From Nannobrachium achirus (lineage: Eukaryota; Chordata; Actinopteri; Myctophiformes; Myctophidae): 64,000 nucleotides of DNA. Each line of letters opens with the position of its first letter. The first letter of the stretch is position 1. The notes under the pieces are model-generated. The model was not told where the DNA came from, made no database searches, and saw nothing but the letters and a program-made list of their open reading frames with translations. The DNA lies in the NCBI GenBank assembly GCA_963921795.1, contig OY997651.1, positions 54,696,018 to 54,760,017 of the forward strand, read 5' to 3'. Made by a program: the position numbers and the translations under genes. Below, piece after piece: positions 18,528 to 31,650 of this stretch.

Positions 18528-21500
18528 TTAACTCGACGTCTCCTCGTTGACGGCGGTGATGACCAACGGGGCCGTGTTCCTCCCCTCGTCGCTGACACTC
18601 GGGCTGAGGAACGGGAAGAGCCTCTCGGTGAAGCGGTGCCCGGCGAAGGAGTACATGTGGGACTTGTCCTCCACGTTGAAGAAAGACACCGTGCCGTCCT
18701 CGTAGTCCACGAACACGCCGACCGTCCGCGGCTTCCCCCGCAGACGGAGGAGGACCGAGGGCGACTCCAGGGCCCGGTACTCGTCGCCGCCCCGGAGCCT
18801 CACCGTCCAATAGCCGTTGTCCGGCGTGGACGTGATCATGCCCTTCCTGTTGATGGACTCTCTGACCACGCCCACGTCCCAGAAGGTCTTTGCTCCCACA
18901 TGGACCTGATGGAAGATCAGAGAGAAAGCGTCAATGGCGGGGACGTGCAGGGAATGTTAGAGAGCTGACGTTTCTAAAAGGGCCTTTTGGTGAAAATATT
19001 GAAAATAGCTGACCTCCAAGCTCACAACGCGTCGCGCTGCGACGCGTTGTGAGCTTGGAGGTCGGCTATTTTCGGTACCTGATACCACACTGAACTAAGC
19101 ATATCGTCGTTGGCGGGTGGAAACCTTGTATGTCCAAAACCGTTTGTTTTGTATTTATCATTTAAAAATGATTTAAGCTAGTGAAAACAGCCGATCTACA
19201 AGCACACAACACCTCGCACCGCTAGGCGTTGTGTGCTTGTAGATCAGCTGTTTTCACTACTTTTGTAAGCAGGTCTTTACTTTGCGAAAGAACATACACA
19301 TTTGAAACTTGGAGATACGAGGTTTCCACACGACAACGACGATATAGTGAATACTGGAGATGTGGCGTAACGGCATGGATTTCTACACATGCAGAGATGG
19401 CAATTCTTTCAACATGATGCCGCAAGTTCAGGAGAGTTTGGACCAGGCAATTCTCTTGAATGCTGCCTTCAGTGATGGCATGGAAATTGAGAATTTTAAT
19501 TTCTTTCACCATAGTGAAAACTGCATTCATGGTCTGGAGAGGGCACTTTTTACAGACGGGTAAAAGGGGAGGGGCTCAATCCCCCTTTGATGGCTATGTG
19601 TGCACGTGCCTGGTCAATGGGAACTGCGATCTACGGTCAGAGTTGATACAACGCAGTAGAGTCTGCATTGTTGATAGGCTCAGAGCAGGGATGATGCATG
19701 GAGACATGGAGTGAAAATGTGAACCACGACCATATCTATAGGCCGGCCTTCAATTTGTAGATATCAACCCCCTTTCCGAAGACAATTTCGGACGTCGGAA
19801 GGAGTATCGAGTATGTATGTATGTATTACACTTTCGGTCTGAGAGCTAAGAAGGACTTAGTCACATTAAACCGATGCTCTATGTTGGGCAGATTGTCAAG
19901 TATACAGTATTTCGTTATAATATTCATTCATTTTGTTCTCATTTCTTTTTAAATAGTGAAAATATCAGCTCTATTCCTTGCCCCACAACCAAATATAAAG
20001 GTAAATTGAACCCTTCCAGAAGGCTGACTGTGAACTGCTTCAGTGCCACTTTTTAAAGACGACATGTGCAGCGGCTATGAACGGCAGCGGCCGTGCGCAC
20101 AATGGACGCGTGCAGCGCGCACAGACCGATCAAAAAGCAGGTAAATACAATTGATTTAATATTGGCAATTAATCGCCATTATTTATGGAAACCTCTGGCA
20201 TCCATCGTGTTGACAAACACTTTAGAGCACGGTTCACCTAAAGTCTCACCTCACCGTGGCCACTGCGGCGCTTCCTATTATTCACATAGATTCAGCGAAA
20301 GACTTTTAATAATGAAGAACCTCATTGGAGCCTACAAATAGCCTCCCAAGTGGGCGCCGGTTCTGACGGCAAATCTCGCGAACGTCCTGTTTACTGGTGC
20401 TATAGATCCCGCGAGAGTGTGTTGCCGGGACAGATAAGTAAAGTTGATTTTCTCCTTTTTTGTGTCGCTGAAAAAAGCCACTTTAGTATGACAATGTTGT
20501 TAATATTATGTGGCTTGTGACGATCGGGTCCAATATTTAGTTCCATTTAGTGACCATGGAGCAAAATAATAGTTCAGAAGCTGTGTTCACGTTAGCTCTC
20601 TCATTGTAAATGAATAGACTCCAAACATGCTTCCGCCTCCTAAAAAGGCATCCACCTACGTCACGCAGAAACGGGAAGTACGGGTCTGTCCCGCCATAGA
20701 CATAGAAAGGTAGACGCCTCCTTCGGCTAGGGAATCGTCATCGCTTCCGTGTTCATGCTTCCGCGTGCGTCACACATACGGAAGTCGGTAAGCCAATCAG
20801 AGGCAGGTGGGGGCTGGTCTTTACGTATGCAGCCTGTAAGAACAGCTGAGCAGCGCAACATCGGAACTGGCTCTGGTTGAATTGAATTGTGGTCCTTGGA
20901 TAAGTCCCGGAAAAGACACGCTGTGATTGGCCAGTAGTCACTTTGACTGATAGCGTTCCCTTAGTTTTTCCAGGAAGTTCGGACTAGAACTTTTGCACAT
21001 CGCTCCAATTAACTGCAGAGGCAAACGAGGCATCTAGCTCTTTATATCTGTGTGTCCCGCCCTCTTGCTATCGCCCTCTTGGATTCAGCTTGAGGACCAA
21101 AGAACGACACTGACCTGGAAGTAGAACCTCCCAGCCAGGAAGCCCCTCTTTCCCAGAATGCAGAGCACGGGGTCAAAGCGCTGGGGGTTGTCGGGCAGGA
21201 CGTGCATCAGGTCACCTCGGCCCACCTGCTTCCCGTCGGCCGACAGCACGATGTTAGGGTGGGCTGTGTCTGGGTCCAACACCACGTCGACTGGTGGGAG
21301 GCATGAGGGCATCGGATAAGTGCATGAATACATGCTATGCATGGGTTGAATTTGTGAATGAAGAAATGCATGGAAAAATTCAATCAATCAATCAATCAAG
21401 CAGTGGTGGAAAAAGTACTCATATTTTGCTTAAGTATAAGTATCAATACTGCAATATAGAATTACTCTGTAAGGGTGCCCTCACACTAAAATACCTATGA

Positions 21501-25000: not shown

Positions 25001-27966
25001 CGGGCAAAACCAACGACAACAAAATATTCTATTCTAAGCCTTGGGTCTGAGAGGCTAAATCTCATCAAAATCGTGTTCCGCTGCTCAAATGCAGAATAAT
25101 TAATGGACCTTGATGTGAAAAGAGTTGAAAACCACTGTGCTAAAGTCATGCGCTACCCTTTGAGCTGCACACAGGACCACATGACCATCCTCACCTTGGT
25201 CCTTCAGCCGCTCCAGCTCGTTCCTCAGTGTGTCGTCCATCTTGGAGACCGCTCTCCTCACAGTTCCCACGCACAGGTCAGAGCTGACACCAGTCTCAGC
25301 CCATTCTCTGGAGGGAGGAAGTGAGCTGAGAGACGGGAACCTCTGTAACCGAGCATAAAAGAGTGAATAGGCTATAAAGCATGCATTAACAAGGTATCAA
25401 GTGGTGTAAAGTACATTTACTTAAAGGAGTAATTCATCCCCAAAATAACTTTTTTTCTATTGATTACTTAACCAATGGAGACTTGAGTTCAATAATATTT
25501 ATTTTTTTATTTGTCGCATTCCCAAGGCAAAACAATGATTTTAATAAATTTACCTCCATTGATTCCGGATGGGGACCCGAATGGATTTGGGTCCCCATCC
25601 AGAATCAATACATTTATTGTAATAACATTTTAGTCTTAGGAATGCGACAAATAAATACAAATATTATTGAACTCAAGTCTCCATGGCATGAGTAATCAAT
25701 AGGAAAAAAAATCATTTTTTCCTTTTTTTCCCTGTTGATTACTCACACCATGGAGACTTGACAATAATTTTATTAAAATAAAATTTCCCCGATTGATTCC
25801 AGATGGAGACCCAAATGCCTTTGGGTCCCCATCCATGGGGGGTAAATTTACTATATCGCCGATCTACAAACTCACAACATGTCGCACTGCGAGACGGCGT
25901 GAACTTGCTGACCGGCTATTTTCGGAGAGTGACACCAGCACAGAACCAAGCATAAAATGACTTGTCTTTTTAGTTCTACTGGATCTCCTCTCCACTAGTC
26001 ACTCTCTAACATTTTAGTCTAGTTTTTATTTGTTGACGAAATTGGCAGTATATTTAGTCTACTGTATTTAGTTTTAGTCATCATAGCTTCATTTTTATTT
26101 TGTTTTTGTCAGTGAAAAATGCAGTCGACGAACATTTTGCGTCATAGTTTTAGCTGGCAGAATCAACATATCCTGACAGCAACATTGGGGACTTGAAGCT
26201 CTGACGATTGTCAGGATGGCAACGCCAGGCGGAGTACGGCTGCTATGACGCAATCGCCGTAGCAGTCAAAATCGTTAAGCAAACAGCCGTCGGCGACGGG
26301 TTCCCACCCCTTTTACTGAACTCTTTGGTTCCCATGGCGACGCGTCTATGCAGAAGACACTGTAGCCACTACGTGGAAAGGGAGCTTGTGCCGTTGTAGG
26401 GACGGCTGCGACGGCGAGATTGATGGAGTATTTTATTAGACAAAAATGGAGAACAGTACAAGTATAGTCAACACAATTGAAATGTAGTACAGTCCAAGTA
26501 CAGTTAAACACCCTGCCTAAAAGGAACATCCCAAATAAGACCTTTTACAGTCTTTTTTTACGTTGGAAGCCCTCTGTATTTAATTCATGGACATAATAAA
26601 TAGCACGCAAAGAAAACATTAAATAATATCGCAGTTATAAAAACACTTTATGTGCAGGATAGGGGAAACAAGGGGTGGGGCTCACTTCTCGCCTGTATGG
26701 GAGAAGTGATAACTACCTCCGTCTCTGGCCTCCTGAAAGGTGAATTTTCAGGGCAGTTTTGAATGATGGCAGCGAGCTTCATGTTTTCAGGGAGGTAGTC
26801 AAGGTTTATCTATCGAGCGCTGATCATTTCCGGGTTGCCGTATAGCCATCTGCCGTAACCGTCGGAGCTTAAACGATTCAGAAACGGTACACATTATTGT
26901 GTATCATTATTTTATGCTTTAACTATTGAAAAATAGCAGATATACAAGCTCACAGCGCGGCACCAAGTGCCGCGCTGCGAGCTTGTAGATCTGCTATTTT
27001 TGAAAAATCATGAAAATTTGAATTTTGACCTGATTCTATAAGTGTCTTTTGAAACCTTCGAAGGTTTTTTGGAAAAACCCTATGTTTCTATGTCAGCAAT
27101 CTGGCCAGCCATCGTCAAAGAAAAGATCCTTTTCACTTAACTGGAGCTCAGTTAGTCTGTTCTCGAGAGACTAACTATGTCAGTGGTTCTCAAACCTTTT
27201 CACGTGAAGGACCCCCAAAATGATATTTATTTGGCCACGGACCCCCATCTCAAAACATTTAGTTCCAGGGACCACCCAGGAGTAAAATTTTAGTTGCAAA
27301 CGTTCGCTTTAAAAATACATAGGCCTACGTTCAAAGATTTGCACACATTTTCACAACTTTTTCAAAAATAGCAGATCTACAAGCTCGCAGCGCGGCACTC
27401 GGTGCCGCGCTGTGAGCTTGTATATCTGCTATTTTTCAATAGCTAAAGCATTCAATAATTCTATAGGCCTAAATGGGTTCGCTAATTTCTTTCCCATGTA
27501 CCTGCAGCAGGTGGAGGTGGTCCTCCGTGTGCTGCAGCAGCTCCAGCTCTCCGCTCCTCCTCTGGAGCTCAGAGATCTCCTCCTCCAGCTCCACGAGGAG
27601 GCCCTCGGCCCTCCTCTCAGCCTCCCTCTGCTTCTCCTCCATCTCCTCGTTGGCCTGCGCCTGGCTGCTCTCCACGGCGCTCGTCAGAGTCGCAAAGACG
27701 CGGTCGCTGTCCACCTTCTCTGCCTTTGCGCTCGCCTTAAGTCGGGAACGGAATCGTTGTTATTCTCAAAAATGTCACTGTATTATAACATTATCATCCC
27801 CAATAAATCTAGTAAAGTTATTTTTATCCATGAAATAAATATTGAAATTATTTGTGTTATTTTGATGTAAAACAATAAGAAAATCTGGTGATTTTGTGCT
27901 ACTGTATCATACTTTTAAATGGTAAATGGTGCATATATATGTGCGTGTGCGTGCGTGCGTGCATGC

Positions 27967-28014
<48 letters not shown>

Positions 28015-31000
28015 TAACCACTGAAACTAGTCTAAGAATTAGAGAACTGTACTTCGACTAAGGCTGGGAAATATATCGAAAAATTATCGATATTGAGGTA
28101 TCAACATACGAGGTATACATGCTTGCACACTATGCATGCACTTAGCACATGCAAAAAAGCTGTCCATCTGTAACCAGGTGTGATTATTTCAATAAAATCA
28201 TTGTTGGAAAATGGAAATAAGGCATTTCATTTCTTTATTCTATGTGCAGTGTGCATGCATGGCTAAGCTATTCATTATCTGGGTTAGGCAGGCAGTGGAC
28301 CTAAAGCACTAATATTGTGAGTAACATTATTAATATTGAAGGCTTTCCTAATATCGCCCAGCCTTAACTTCAACCTCTTTTTTCTGCTTTCCGTGTACAC
28401 CAAATCTCAGCCAGAAGAAGGCGATCTAGGAGCTCACATTTATACAAGTGTAACAGTGGGAGAGGTTCAGACCAGAACTCACTCTGCTCTGCTCCAAACA
28501 TTGTTTAATCTCCTCTGCTTTCTTCAGTCGGTCCTGGATCAGCTGCTCAAACTCGGCTTCCTTCTCCTTCATCTGAACCTGAACCACACACATTGCTCTC
28601 AGTTTTATTAAATTGTTACTGTCGGACAGAAACCTCTTATCTCCAGGTTTCAAATGTGTAGATTTTTTCGCAAAGCAAAGCCCTGCTTCATCATACAACG
28701 CCGTCACACAACAGTATAGTGAAAACAGCAGATCTACAAGCACACAACGTGCGAGGCGTTGTGTGCTTGTAGATCGGCTGTTTTCACTAGTTTAACTAAT
28801 TTTTTAAAATGGTAAATACAAAACCAACGGTTTTGGACATACAAGGTTTTCACCCGACAGCGACGATATCCATAGATATGATGGATCTCATGTATGCTCA
28901 TGTGCTGGTGTGGCGACCACCCAGAAGCAACATCTTAGTTACAAATGTTCGCTTAAAAACCTTTAGACTTTTCCAAAATAGCACATCTACAAGCTCGCAG
29001 CCACGCTTGTGAGCTATAGTAGATCTGCTATTTTTCAATAGCTGAAGTATTAAATAATTAAGGCCCAAACATGGAGCGATCCACAGTGATCTCCGTACCT
29101 TTATCTCCCCGCTCTCCTCCTCTATGGTGACGGCGCGATGGCTCTTGTGCTCCGTCTCCGTGCAGAAGCGACACACGCACGTCCCGTCGTCCCTGCAGAA
29201 CATCTCCAGCAGCCTGGAGGCAGGGGTGGGAGATATGGAAGATATCACAATATTCTTCCAAGCGGTATCGTGATACACTGTCTTATCACGATGTTGCTTT
29301 TTATGGTTATTTTTCAAGTTACCTAACAGTACAACCACCTACATGGTAACAAAACCTAAAAGAAGAAGGGCCATTTAGACCAGCGGCCCTCAAAGTGGGG
29401 TCCAGGGACTCTCTGGGTTACTATTGGGAGGTCTAAATTGACCCTTACAAGTATGATTATTAAACCACTAAATACAAATTAAACCAAATGGACCATTACG
29501 GGTCACCACCACAAGTATGTAACTCTGACAGTATACAAATGAAACCAAATGGACCCTTACGGGTCCATTTGGTTTCATTTGTATAATGTCAGAGTTAAGG
29601 GGAGACCGTGCCATTTTAAAGTTTGGAAACTACTGATTTAGACCAAAATGTAGGTTTGAATGCATTCTGCAATGAATCTCTTTAACAATTCAACAGGATT
29701 TGTTTATATAATTAAGGCTCCCTCATTGTATCACAATATAAACCAGGGTTCCCCAATAGGCCGCGGGGGGCTACTGTCTGGCCCACACCAACCCCAGTAA
29801 TAATGGTGTTATAAGAGCAGCAACAACACTAGTATACTGTCGTTGTCGGGTGGAAATCTCGTATCTCCAAATGTGTACGTTCTTTCGCAAATCATACAAG
29901 GCCGTCGCACAAAAGTAGTGAAAACAGCAGATCTACAAGCACCCAACGCTTCGCGCCGCGAGGTGTTGTGTGCTTGTAGATCGGCTGTTTTCACTAGTTT
30001 AAATCATTTTTAAAATGATAAATTCAAAAGGAACGGTTTTGGACAGAGATTTTCACCCGACAACGACGAAAACTGACGCTGGAGTAGCGGGAACGCCAGC
30101 GTCGCCCCCTGCAATGTTGTGGCCCTCGGCTTGGCACCCTAGACATAATTCGGCCCTTGGGAAAAACTAATTGGGGAACCCTGCTATATAAGATATCTCT
30201 GAAAAGGCATATCGTGGAGACATTGTATCGTCGCAACAATATTCATCACCATATCGCCCACCCCTACCTGGAGTGCTTGGTGCAGATCCTGTCCTCCAGG
30301 TTGTCCACGGGGTCGATCAGCTTGTGGCGAGCCAGCGCCGCCACGTGCCGGTGAGGCTCCAGGTGGTCGTGGCAGTACGACGTCAGACACACCAGACACG
30401 ACTTCAGGGCCCGGAGCTGCGCCACGGTCCCCGCCAGGCAGACGTCGCACGCCACCTCGCCCGGCACTAGGGCTGTCACGATTATGACATTTTACACAAT
30501 GATTATTTGACTCTCAAATAGTTGCGATTAACGATTTCATTGTGTTTTGGTTGTTGACAATTACATTTATGTTTGGCTCGTAGGCTTTGAAGTTGCACAT
30601 GCATAGAAGATATGACACATAACCTAATACAAAGAAATGACTGACATATTTGACAACTTTATACTTAACAAAGAACATTGATAGTGGAAATAGCCAATCT
30701 ACAAGCTCACGTAGCATCACAACATGTTGTGTGCTATTTCCAAAATTTTTCCACTATTTATGACGATTATGACAAAACAGGGGCGTTTTTATAGGTGGGC
30801 CTGGGTGGCACCCATCAATTTTGGCCAAAGAAAAAAAAAATATATATATATTATACAGTATGTTTTTTTTCTCTTTCATTAAATAAAATGTTTTTTTTTT
30901 GTTGTTGTTGTTGTGTTTTTTGTGTGATCATCGTCTTGCTTAATATGAATAAATGAACAGTACTTTACAACTGTCGCTCCGATGATGCATGTTTTACACT

Positions 31001-31650
31001 AGCAGCAGTTGGCTACTGCGTGTTTGGAGGTGAAGTGTTAGTTTATATTTGGATATTAATTATTGTTTATTGATAGTGCCACCCGCACCCGTTTTAACCA
31101 CCAAAAACCCTAATAATTGACAGTAAAAAAAAAATCCAAAATGTCTCGCCCATGCCGGGCAAGAGTCCCCCCCTGTGCCCACCCTGAAGTTGCCAGGCCC
31201 AGCCTATTTCTCTGTTCTGGCTGTCCCCCTGTGACAAAATAATTGCGATTATGACATATAATTGCGATAATTGCGATTAAATGATTATGTAATAGCCTAA
31301 TTGTGACAGGCCTCACCTGGCGCGACCGTCTGCGGCGGCGGAGGTGCGGATAGCAGCGGGGCCGCCGCCACAGAGCCCACGGCTATCGTTCCGAACATGT
31401 CCACAAGCTCTTTAAAGGCGGCGTTGACGCTTATGTCCGGCCGGGAAGGGAACGCTCTTTGACACGCGGGGCACCGGCGGGGACCTCCACCGGCGGGGAC
31501 CTCCATGCCCGGTGCGCCTTCCCAGGCGCCTCGGAGGCAGGCCTCGCAGAAGTTGTGTCCGCAGGGCGTGGTGACCGGGTCGCTGAGCACCCGCAGGCAG
31601 ATGGGACACTGGAACTGCTTCTCGCACAGCAGGCTGTCTCGGCTGGCCAT
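18528..31650 (-). CDS. TRIM-family RING E3 ubiquitin ligase with PRY-SPRY, bloodthirsty-related type, nine exons
   Basis: Exons on the minus strand are 31317-31650, 30268-30466, 29099-29213, 28483-28578, 27502-27735, 25195-25342, 22607-22633, 21115-21290 and 18528-18905. All have consensus GT-AG borders and matching phases, giving 568 codons plus stop with no break. Domains in order: RING C3HC4 (C15, C18, C30, H32, C35, C38, C60, C63); B-box 1 (CDVCLAGTV...CLVCLTSYC); B-box 2 ([20 protein letters not shown]...EHKSH); coiled coil over the 96-nt and 234-nt exons ([39 protein letters not shown]); linker [23 protein letters not shown] ([20 protein letters not shown]); SPRY ([31 protein letters not shown]). 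The family transfers ubiquitin through the RING, dimerises through the coiled coil and binds targets through PRY-SPRY; many members are interferon-induced. In fish relatives RING and B-boxes share exon 1; here exons 1-3 (334+199+115 = 648 nt) are split by two hAT-derived introns. Later introns are also full of repeats. The gene looks intact and functional. Confidence 0.92.
19001..19073. repeat. palindromic hairpin repeat, subfamily C, intact
   Basis: The arm GAAAATAGCTGACCTCCAAG is inverted at the other end. The inner arms CTCACAACGCGTCGC and GCGACGCGTTGTGAG are perfectly complementary. Subfamily C has CTCCAAGC where A has CTACAAGC. It is embedded in CTAAAAGGGCCTTTTGG context shared with 33090-33110. 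Confidence 0.85.
19104..19346. mobile_element. palindromic MITE 'B' (outer ends plus central hairpin)
   Basis: The outer inverted ends are TATCGTCGTTG...GGTGGAAACCTTG and GAGGTTTCC...CAACGACGATA. The central hairpin 19179-19259 has GTGAAAACAGCCGATCTACA arms and the variable core CACCTCGCACCGCTAGGCG. TA lies at both edges, suggesting a TA target. Relatives lie at 28620-28880, 29838-30070, 35105-35365, 37985-38107 and 60095-60350. Confidence 0.8.
19350..21080. other. TRIM intron 8 remainder: dispersed repeats, no gene
   Basis: It contains an inverted copy of repeat D (19525-19612), CpG-bearing sequence around 20360-20450, and the GCTTCCGCCTCC/GCTTCCGCGTGCG blocks near 20625-20780. No coding frame is convincing. 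Confidence 0.5.
21401..21993 (+). mobile_element. hAT-like MITE rich in 'AAAGTAC' motifs
   Basis: The left end is CAGTGGTGGAAAAAGTACTC and the right end TAGTTACTTTACACCACTG. The left half carries the palindromic insertion 21470-21654. The middle carries a half-deleted subfamily A palindrome (GAAAATAGCAGATCTACAAG, 21753-21790). Flanking DNA on both sides contains the same ~60-bp block (TGAATGAAGAAATGCATGG), a local direct duplication. Confidence 0.75.
21470..21654. mobile_element. 185-bp palindromic MITE, nested
   Basis: TAAGGGTGCCCTCACAC and GTGTGAGGGCACCCTTA bound arms that continue with ACCTATGAGAGTGGAATCCG and its inverse. The related 650-1190 copy lacks the insert at the same point (CTCTGTTAAAAG), so the insertion is directly visible. 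Cousins lie at 54105-54225 and 60885-60998. Confidence 0.85.
22020..22080. repeat. (AATC)n microsatellite
   Basis: About 11 AATC units from 22037. Confidence 0.9.
22143..22358. mobile_element. 216-bp palindromic MITE with degenerate hairpin centre
   Basis: GGGCCCTATTATGATCCAG and CTGGATCATAATAGGGCCC are exact inverse ends. Arms of about 90 bp lead to a centre (GCTGATCTACATCTGCACAT) that resembles the subfamily A hairpin. It lies in TRIM intron 7. Confidence 0.8.
22771..22850. repeat. palindromic hairpin repeat, subfamily A, eroded right arm
   Basis: ATAGCCGATCTACAAGCTCA is followed by GATGCGATGCGTTGTAAGCT and a degraded CTATTTTC end. Confidence 0.7.
22941..23310. repeat. inverted-repeat element, ~100-bp arms
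   Basis: The left arm (TTCCCAGCAAATACC, CCGGAATGAACGTCGCCGGG, GGGGGTGCGTTCGG) is mirrored at 23225-23310 (CCGAACACACCCCCCGTTTC, CGTTCCGGCGACATTACCG, CTTCCCAGCAAGC). The loop holds an unrelated-looking ~150 bp. The transposon class is not determined. Confidence 0.6.
23910..25137. mobile_element. hAT-type element (outer), TRIM intron 6
   Basis: The ends CAGTGGTTTTCAACCAGTGG and GAGTTGAAAACCACTG are inverted. The flanks GGCTAAAG (23902-23909) and TGCTAAAG (25138-25145) match at 7 of 8 positions, a hAT-size duplication. The inner element 23941-24825 interrupts its left end. No transposase is present. Confidence 0.85.
23941..24825. mobile_element. 885-bp hAT-type MITE nested in the outer one
   Basis: The ends are CAGTGTTGGGAAAGTTA and AGTAACTTCCCCAACACTG. 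The flanks CCGAGGAG and CTGAGGAG match at 7 of 8. The interior is rich in 'AAGTTAC' motifs and A/T-runs, with no open transposase frame. Confidence 0.85.
25425..25855. mobile_element. TTAA-type MITE, right end lost
   Basis: TTAA at 25421-25424 precedes AGGAGTAATTCATCCCCAAA, the family left end. Inverted inner blocks (GATTCCGGATGGGGACCC and GGGTCCCCATCCAGAATC) are present, followed by a second partial copy of the left half. The right edge runs into the palindrome at 25855-25925. Confidence 0.7.
25855..25925. repeat. palindromic hairpin repeat, subfamily C-like, eroded
   Basis: CCGATCTACAAACTCACAAC and GTGAACTTGCTGACCGGCTA remain of the two arms. The right flank CACCAGCACAGAACCAAGCA matches that of the 19001 copy. 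Confidence 0.65.
26000..26420. other. TRIM intron 5, no gene seen
   Basis: A CpG-rich patch near 26210-26420 has an open frame of 63 codons without recognisable domain content. Confidence 0.4.
26420..26800 (-). mobile_element. L2-type LINE, extreme 3' end
   Basis: The minus strand encodes [20 protein letters not shown], the terminal motif of L2-type reverse transcriptases, followed by a 3' UTR ending in AATAAAATAC near 26430. It is a cousin of the 2385-3075 copy. Confidence 0.65.
26890..27478. mobile_element. composite repeat with a palindrome at each end, full copy
   Basis: The palindromes 26922-27005 and 27361-27443 are mirror copies: the first runs 'ATATACAAGC...GCTTGTAGAT', the second 'ATCTACAAGC...GCTTGTATAT'. 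The ends (CTTTAACTATTGAAAAATAG and CTATTTTTCAATAGCTAAAG) are therefore inverted. The interior carries the CAGTGGTTCTCAAACC hAT-like block at 27179. It lies in TRIM intron 5, just 3' of the coiled-coil exon. Confidence 0.8.
27940..28012. repeat. (GT)n/(GC)GT microsatellite
   Basis: GTGCGTGCGT units pass into (GT)n. Confidence 0.9.
28620..28880. mobile_element. palindromic MITE 'B', TRIM intron 3
   Basis: The central hairpin 28716-28792 (AGTGAAAACAGCAGATCTAC and inverse) is flanked by TTCAAATGTGTAGATTTTTT...GCAAAGCAAAG and by AAATACAAAACCAACGGTTT, as in the other B copies. The inner stem is shortened to CACACAACG/CGTTGTGTG. Confidence 0.75.
28905..29056. mobile_element. partial composite repeat with eroded subfamily A palindrome
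   Basis: CAGAAGCAACATCTTAGTTA and TTCGCTTAAAAACC precede the hairpin 28972-29042 (TAGCACATCTACAAGCTCGC). Confidence 0.65.
29381..29635. mobile_element. 255-bp hAT-type MITE with perfect 8-bp duplication
   Basis: ATTTAGAC occurs at 29373-29380 and 29636-29643. The ends are CAGCGGCCCTCAAAGTGG and CTTTGGAAAC-like GTTTGGAAACTACTG. An internal inverted pair centres on GGGTCCATTTGGTTTCATTT. Confidence 0.85.
29744..30183. mobile_element. hAT-type MITE carrying a B palindrome
   Basis: The ends CAGGGTTCCCCAATAGG and AATTGGGGAACCCTG are inverse. The palindromic MITE B at 29838-30070 sits inside. The flanking duplication is not clear. Confidence 0.75.
29838..30070. mobile_element. palindromic MITE 'B', third nesting level in intron 2
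   Basis: TCGTTGTCGGGTGGAAATC and TTTTCACCCGACAACGA bound the central hairpin 29921-30000 (GTGAAAACAGCAGATCTACA; inner arms CCAACGCTTCGCG and CGCGAGGTGTTGTG). Confidence 0.8.
30467..31314. mobile_element. hAT-type element forming TRIM intron 1
   Basis: The ends are CTAGGGCTGTCACGATTA and TAATTGTGACAGGCCTC, an inverted pair of the common fish 'TAGGGCTGTCACGATTA' hAT type. The flanks GCCCGGCA (30459-30466) and ACCTGGCG (31315-31322) match at 5 of 8, the differences all being transitions, as expected for an old duplication. On the coding strand the donor GT is the last two bases of the duplication copy and the acceptor AG is the last two bases of the element. The same element type ends just before the top1 remnant exon at 56570-56643. 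Confidence 0.8.
30684..30750. repeat. palindromic hairpin repeat, subfamily A, eroded
   Basis: GGAAATAGCCAATCTACAAG remains of the left arm and GTGTGCTATTTCC of the right. It lies inside the intron 1 element. Confidence 0.65.

Follow-up and report, generated by a model that had tools for sequence, protein, structure and literature searches.

The predicted intron 2 of a TRIM25-like fish gene is formed by a hAT-type element whose family probably acts as an introner throughout the genome

In a stretch of 64,000 nucleotides of the Nannobrachium achirus genome (contig OY997651.1, positions 54,696,018 to 54,760,017; this whole stretch is called the window below), the predicted second intron of a minus-strand TRIM gene is formed by a transposon-like element of hAT type. 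This raises the question of whether the intron was created by the insertion itself, and whether the same has happened elsewhere in the genome. The preliminary description of the window had regarded intron 2 as a gain by a hAT element. That observation is real and understated, and the element family very probably (about 0.9) acts as a genome-wide introner, that is, as a source of new introns.

The window gene is TRIM25-like: its part from RING to coiled coil matches the TRIM25 structure 4cfg (E 8.5e-39), and the Pfam RING, B-box and TRIM_CC models were matched in a profile scan. The domain order is RING, B-boxes, coiled coil and B30.2, with PRY and SPRY recognised by eye. The features around intron 2 are as follows.

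31317..31650, minus strand: coding part of exon 1, RING finger, ending ...GCGCCAG
30268..30466, minus strand: exon 2, B-box 1 and start of B-box 2, ending ...CACTCCAG
29099..29213, minus strand: exon 3, remainder of B-box 2, starting GCTGCTGG
29214..30267, minus strand: predicted intron 2, 1,054 nt, GTAGGG...CCTCCAG
29221..30266: hAT-type miniature inverted-repeat transposable element (MITE) forming intron 2, 1,046 bp, ends (both read inwards) CAGGGGTGGGAGATATGG / TAGGGGTGGGCGATATGG
29213..29220: target duplication copy CCTGGAGG, which supplies the acceptor AG and the opening base of exon 3 on the coding strand
30267..30274: target duplication copy CCTGGAGT, whose last coding-strand G and the element's T make the donor GT
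29744..30184 (approximate): nested later insertion in the element, ends CAGGGTTCCCCAAT / ATTGGGGAACCCTG, with no clear target duplication

Direct reading of 29213-30274 bore out that the inverted ends lie exactly within 8-bp direct repeats, as first described. The inverted arms found by repeat search measure 21 nt with 90% identity, 3 flank bases included, and a degenerate end pattern with up to 3 mismatches occurs twice in the window, precisely at the intron-2 pair, compared with 0.11 expected from shuffles; a chance repeat pair was rejected on these numbers. The coding-strand donor is predicted to be CAG/GTAGGG and the acceptor to be the CAG of the second duplication copy. Removing the element and one duplication copy rejoins the reading frame within B-box 2, as had been proposed, with a predicted junction 30268/29213, and the spliced product aligns without a gap to TRIM25 (4cfg) across the seam. 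The element is 8.7% substituted relative to the 477-bp family consensus, and blastn with this consensus gave one clear inner break of about 440 bp at roughly 29744-30184. Later enlargement by nesting is thus clear for one insertion, and the two or three insertions suggested earlier are not certain.

The family is non-autonomous, with a consensus of 477 bp, termini TAGGGGTGGGCG...CGCCCACCCCTA, short terminal inverted repeats starting T/CAGGG and an 8-bp target duplication, the last two features being those expected of hAT elements. Its exact 16-mer end TAGGGGTGGGCGATAT occurs 3,706 times in the genome (1,864 + 1,842 by strand). The flank CAGG precedes such exact ends in 90 places (44 + 46), and the composition-matched control flank GCAG in 11 (5 + 6); about 18 CAGG flanks would be expected from 4-mer frequencies in the retrieved loci, which are a biased sample. 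Fifty of the 90 CAGG places, the window included, were examined, all chosen for this flank. They represent 48 distinct ends of 47 elements after the near-copies L083 (of L082) and L087 (of L086) were dropped and L060 was recognised as the same element as L059.

For 43 of these 48 ends the second element end with its duplication was located; the other end was not found at L045, L067, L070, L073 and L086. Among 32 rows with both ends, the 8-bp duplications had no mismatch in 21, one mismatch in 10 and two mismatches in 1, where at most two mismatches was a condition of the search. Substitutions relative to the consensus were 1.5-9.5% across 43 rows, except for the poorly aligned L046 at 13.7%, and the insertions are therefore fairly recent and not all new. 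One insertion is common to the neighbouring tandem copies L081 and L082, with their frames intact, and another is common to L071 and L085. At L052 and L068 the element lacks its final 8-9 bp, and the acceptor in the duplication is intact.

At 23 of the 48 ends, representing 21 independent insertions, removal of the element together with one duplication copy joins frames that are open on both sides. The preliminary description had proposed a genome search for elements of the same family with the same splice use, and this search led to many further genes. A protein-family or structure match extends over the seam in 11 of the 21 insertions, one of them weakly (L063). These are listed below.

Window TRIM gene: Pfam models and TRIM25
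L039: TTC39, PF10300, 7.9e-31 over the seam
L046: TRIM13/59-like, U-box model 2.3e-10 over the seam, plus B-box; TRIM21 match
L052: OTOP2, PF03189, 6e-22 versus 8e-10 for the upstream part alone; 8ug6, 1e-49, ungapped at the seam
L056: myocilin, PF02191, 8.7e-82 versus 3.2e-22 upstream alone; 6ou1, 1.5e-113, ungapped at the seam
L059: NCOA, PF16665, 9.4e-10 over the seam
L061: butyrophilin immunoglobulin domain, PF22705, 6.1e-11; duplication with 2 mismatches, second copy GGAATTGG
L063: PH domain, 0.0019, weak and below its cut-off
L069: TMEM151, 1.2e-185 over the seam
L074: HTR2A, 9arx, 5.6e-103; seam ungapped, with a 3-residue gap starting 5 residues past it
L081/L082: histidine N-acetyltransferase, 1.1e-41, scanned for L082

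Given its second copy GGAATTGG, the acceptor at L061 would be the element's A plus G. The 25 ends that were not counted as in-frame coding are L040-L042, L045, L047, L049, L051, L053-L055, L057, the + end of L059, L062, L064, L065, L067, L070, L073, L076-L080, L084 and L086. L051 has an otopetrin-like appearance on the opposite strand; its target is palindromic, and there was no Pfam match.

To compare the seams with related genes, the spliced exon 1-3 protein of the window gene was searched against its own genome, which gave 1,510 first-look candidates, of which 150 were scored, one being the window. All other 149 scored matches are continuous at both seams (residues 111 and 178), and each reaches at least residue 188; 28 of the 29 opened paralogues (L010-L038) match all 326 residues unbroken. 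The intron-2 position, whose presence in TRIM paralogues had been proposed as a check, was thus not found in these 149 matches. TRIM genes are strongly expanded in this genome: beyond the window gene there are 149 or more RING-B-box matches, and many of them lie in open frames about 550 residues long. Continuous paralogues at the seam were also found for all five further genes queried. They lie on C16 (77% identity) and C20 (67%) for TMEM151, on C1 for myocilin (68%) and on C1 for the HTR2 type (50%). For the ZEB type, the paralogue on C5 has a weak seam match (41%, E 2.2e-4) with a stronger match adjoining in the same 599-residue frame, and for the ZHX type, the match on C6 starts five residues before the seam in a 929-residue frame.

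The published structure of fish TRIM genes points in the same direction. In PMC2657112, finTRIM genes have RING and B-boxes in one exon of 555-594 bp and coiled-coil exons of 96 and 234 bp. The two coiled-coil exons of the window gene have identical, canonical lengths:

28483..28578, minus strand: exon 4, coiled coil, 96 bp
27502..27735, minus strand: exon 5, coiled coil, 234 bp

In contrast, its RING-B-box part is divided by introns 1 and 2 into 334 + 199 + 115 bp, and since these 648 bp lie in three pieces versus one exon in PMC2657112, introns 1 and 2 are extra. This gene structure, together with vertebrate genes such as HTR2A and myocilin, also marks the host as probably a teleost. An old TRIM intron was therefore rejected as the origin of intron 2, on the 149 scored paralogue matches and the structure given in PMC2657112. 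The gain of intron 2 by a hAT element, with splice sites predicted to come from duplication and element, is supported by the anatomy, the continuity with TRIM25, the intron-free paralogues and the same published structure.

These observations can be put together in a mechanism. A non-autonomous hAT-type element would act as an introner by duplicating 8 bp of its target. If the target ends with CAGG on the coding strand, its last G and the T of the element would make the donor CAG/GTAGGG, and the acceptor CAG/G would come from the second target copy, which follows the pyrimidine-rich end of the element; excision would then take the element and one duplication copy, leaving the mRNA unchanged. 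In targets that start and end with G, the acceptor may instead be the final A of the element plus that G, and the mRNA would gain 6 nt, or two codons, in frame. Either orientation would work because both ends carry the same terminal repeat. Exon insertions that fit by chance may persist as introns and others would be lost, with selection presumably acting as the filter; intron 2 would be one of the persisting insertions.

The anatomy, the frame restoration, the enrichment of fitting flanks and the continuous paralogues were observed directly. The sequences also agree with what distinguishes introners: similar elements lie at new positions in unrelated genes (21 independent insertions), the element ends and the target duplication mark the predicted intron borders, and the position lacks an intron in related genes (149 of 149 TRIM rows and five of five further genes). 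It is likely that in this vertebrate a hAT MITE works as a factory of introns, pre-adapted by its TAG...CTA termini and 8-bp duplication, seamless in CAGG targets, adding two codons in G......G targets and usable in either orientation, and that dozens of conserved genes were split by it fairly recently.

Intron 1 of the window gene offers a comparison, with these features:

30467..31316, minus strand: predicted intron 1, 850 nt, GTGAGG...CCCTAG, running from GTGAGGCCTGTCAC to CGTGACAGCCCTAG
30468..31315: second hAT-like element, 848 bp, ends TAGGGCTGTCACGATTA / TGAGGCCTGTCACAATTA, 3 mismatches in one end
30460..30467: target duplication copy CCCGGCAC, equal to the other copy in 6 of 8 bases
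31316..31323: target duplication copy CCTGGCGC

This element belongs to a family other than that of intron 2. The predicted donor consists of the duplication G and the element T, and the predicted acceptor of the element A and the duplication G; splicing would add 6 nt compared with the empty site and keep the frame. Intron 1 is thus probably a second, different hAT element with the same splice trick, on weaker evidence than for intron 2. Its donor end reads GTGAGG, and GTAGGG would result from its other end; GTGAGG is nearer to the donor consensus than GTAGGG.

The most direct alternative is that the element landed near the edge of a pre-existing intron and merely resembles a whole one. Such a case seems to occur at L065, where an existing RIPOR/FAM65 exon ends at the element. 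For the window copy and for the 23 in-frame ends, however, the downstream frame resumes immediately after the second duplication copy, which leaves no remnant of an older intron. The 149 TRIM matches and a paralogue for each of the five queried genes are also continuous, and fish TRIM genes carry RING and B-boxes in a single exon (PMC2657112). Insertion into a pre-existing intron was therefore rejected for the 23 in-frame ends on frame continuity and continuous paralogues, seems valid for L065, and is extremely unlikely as a general account. The insertions might, on the other hand, be unspliced, representing recent gene-breaking or polymorphic copies, and the restored frame would then be the empty site by definition. 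The empty site returns whenever a transposon is removed with one duplication copy, many copies differ from the consensus by a few percent only, and splicing itself is deduced from sequence. Under this explanation one would expect neither the surplus of CAGG over GCAG flanks (90 versus 11) nor the sense-strand position of the donor-side CAGG in the 11 matches across the seam, against none among 14 antisense frames scanned. In the window, the gene frame is intact although the copy has 8.7% substitutions and a later insertion nested in it, and the frames of the tandem copies L081 and L082 around their common insertion are intact as well. Unspliced insertions are thus very unlikely to account for the set.

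An excess of CAGG might also come from a target preference of the hAT element for CAGG or for exons, and not from survival of splice-compatible insertions. Copies with CAGG but no recognised coding flank also seem to number more than 11-18 genome-wide (25 of the 48 ends are not in-frame, extrapolated to 90), and since the excess extends outside recognised coding sequence, some target-site preference is possible. A target preference, in an element whose two ends are alike, would not dictate the sense strand, however, and the seam-spanning matches are in the donor-making sense. A scan of the antisense frames covered 14 of 18 loci that had no coding evidence in sense (all but L042, L047, L055 and L080, the in-frame loci not being part of this set) and gave no seam-spanning match, the sole hit being at L065 up to the existing exon end. 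Exon preference was not seen in seven unselected copies (L001-L008, two of which are ends of one element), none of which had a protein-like frame by eye; this is a small control, in which both sides were joined for three copies and one flank only was read for four. Target preference as the whole cause of the excess is considered unlikely.

Several points, including the possible target preference just mentioned and the case of L065, weigh against the introner family as proposed here. Splicing at the seams is predicted, and mobilisation by a hAT transposase is presumed. The coding classification was made by eye and not blind, with library support for part of it. Four of the 21 insertions have a match on one side only, namely L043 (hAT transposase-like, below cut-off), L044 (piggyBac-like), L068 (ZHX) and L072 (homeodomain, in a gene that we take to be ZEB). 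Six others (L048, L050, L058, L066, L071/L085 and L075) rest on open frames, with no seam-spanning library match found; of these, L048 and L050 are presumably LMTK-like and L066 presumably FBXO46-like. At L053 (keratin) the element lies in an exon and the frame is off by one base. In an HTR2A-like paralogue on C14, the pieces that match query residues 1-64 and 140-221 lie about 12 kb apart, so that this gene has an interruption somewhere in the same loop. Intron 1 has a mutated element end and a 6/8 duplication. The 28 seemingly intronless copies among the 29 opened TRIM paralogues are probably retrocopies, which makes them weaker as an ancestral state, and this is why the published fish structure matters.

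Two further parts of the window gene were recognised by eye:

21115..21290, minus strand: PRY half of B30.2, ending ...CTTCCAG/GTCAGT; 3' edge exact, 5' edge approximate
18528..18905, minus strand: SPRY half of B30.2, starting CAG/GTCCATG

They are separated by a 2.2-kb intron (18906-21114), and fish TRIM genes have B30.2 in one exon (PMC2657112). Neither a duplication nor hAT ends were seen on reading this intron and no transposon origin was recognised, so it was not counted as element-derived. Another hAT-like repeat with CTGGGCGATATT-type ends (by eye) lies at 28045-28366, within one of the gene's later, ordinary introns. The introns of the gene also share a near-palindromic motif, GCAGATCTACAAGC...GCTTGTAGATC..., at 26930-27030, 27360-27450, 28690-28780 and 29912-30000 (the last also in the repeat search), which apparently belongs to a separate small repeat family, judged by eye.

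The splicing of hAT elements has a precedent in plants, where Giroux et al. in 1994 reportedly described maize Ds, a hAT element, spliced as an intron with splice sites given by the target duplication; those cases are said to be mutant alleles and not a natural genome-wide animal set. Introners surveyed by Gozashti et al. (2022, PMC9860276) share with the present family the similar elements with terminal repeats and target duplications, the introns at many new positions, the splice sites partly taken from the duplication, and an mRNA that is unchanged or gains a few codons. In that survey no pattern of introner gain was found in vertebrates, whereas the host here is a fish and the element is a common dispersed repeat with an 8-bp duplication. 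A 2025 report (PMC12357937) describes two transposon-like introns (3 and 5) in notothenioid slc26a2, which resemble the present ones as new teleost introns of transposon-like sequence later enlarged by a second element, intron 3 having gt-ag within direct and inverted repeats. That case concerns one gene and NTE-1 with tgt...aca ends and 4-nt duplications, in contrast to the TAGGGG ends, 8-bp duplications and many genes found here. Species-specific introns, some with repeats, have also been described in the normally intron-less receptor exons of fish G protein-coupled receptor genes (PMC3151243); these too are new introns of ray-finned fish, with a mechanism left unresolved there. The authors of a human intron-gain study point out that the methods used were not meant to reveal a transposon origin (PMC12124190). 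In the open-licence literature searched, no vertebrate introner family was found besides the one-gene case of PMC12357937.

For genome annotation, these insertions are a warning that repeat masking and homology-based annotation can call element-split genes broken. Vertebrates are considered to gain introns very rarely, with one teleost gene with transposon introns on record (PMC12357937). With many young introns from one recognisable element, it can be asked which insertions survive and how fast their splice sites improve, and such a genome lets one ask whether population size or the splicing machinery matters. If the introner reading is true, intron gain in a vertebrate would be observable as a process under way.
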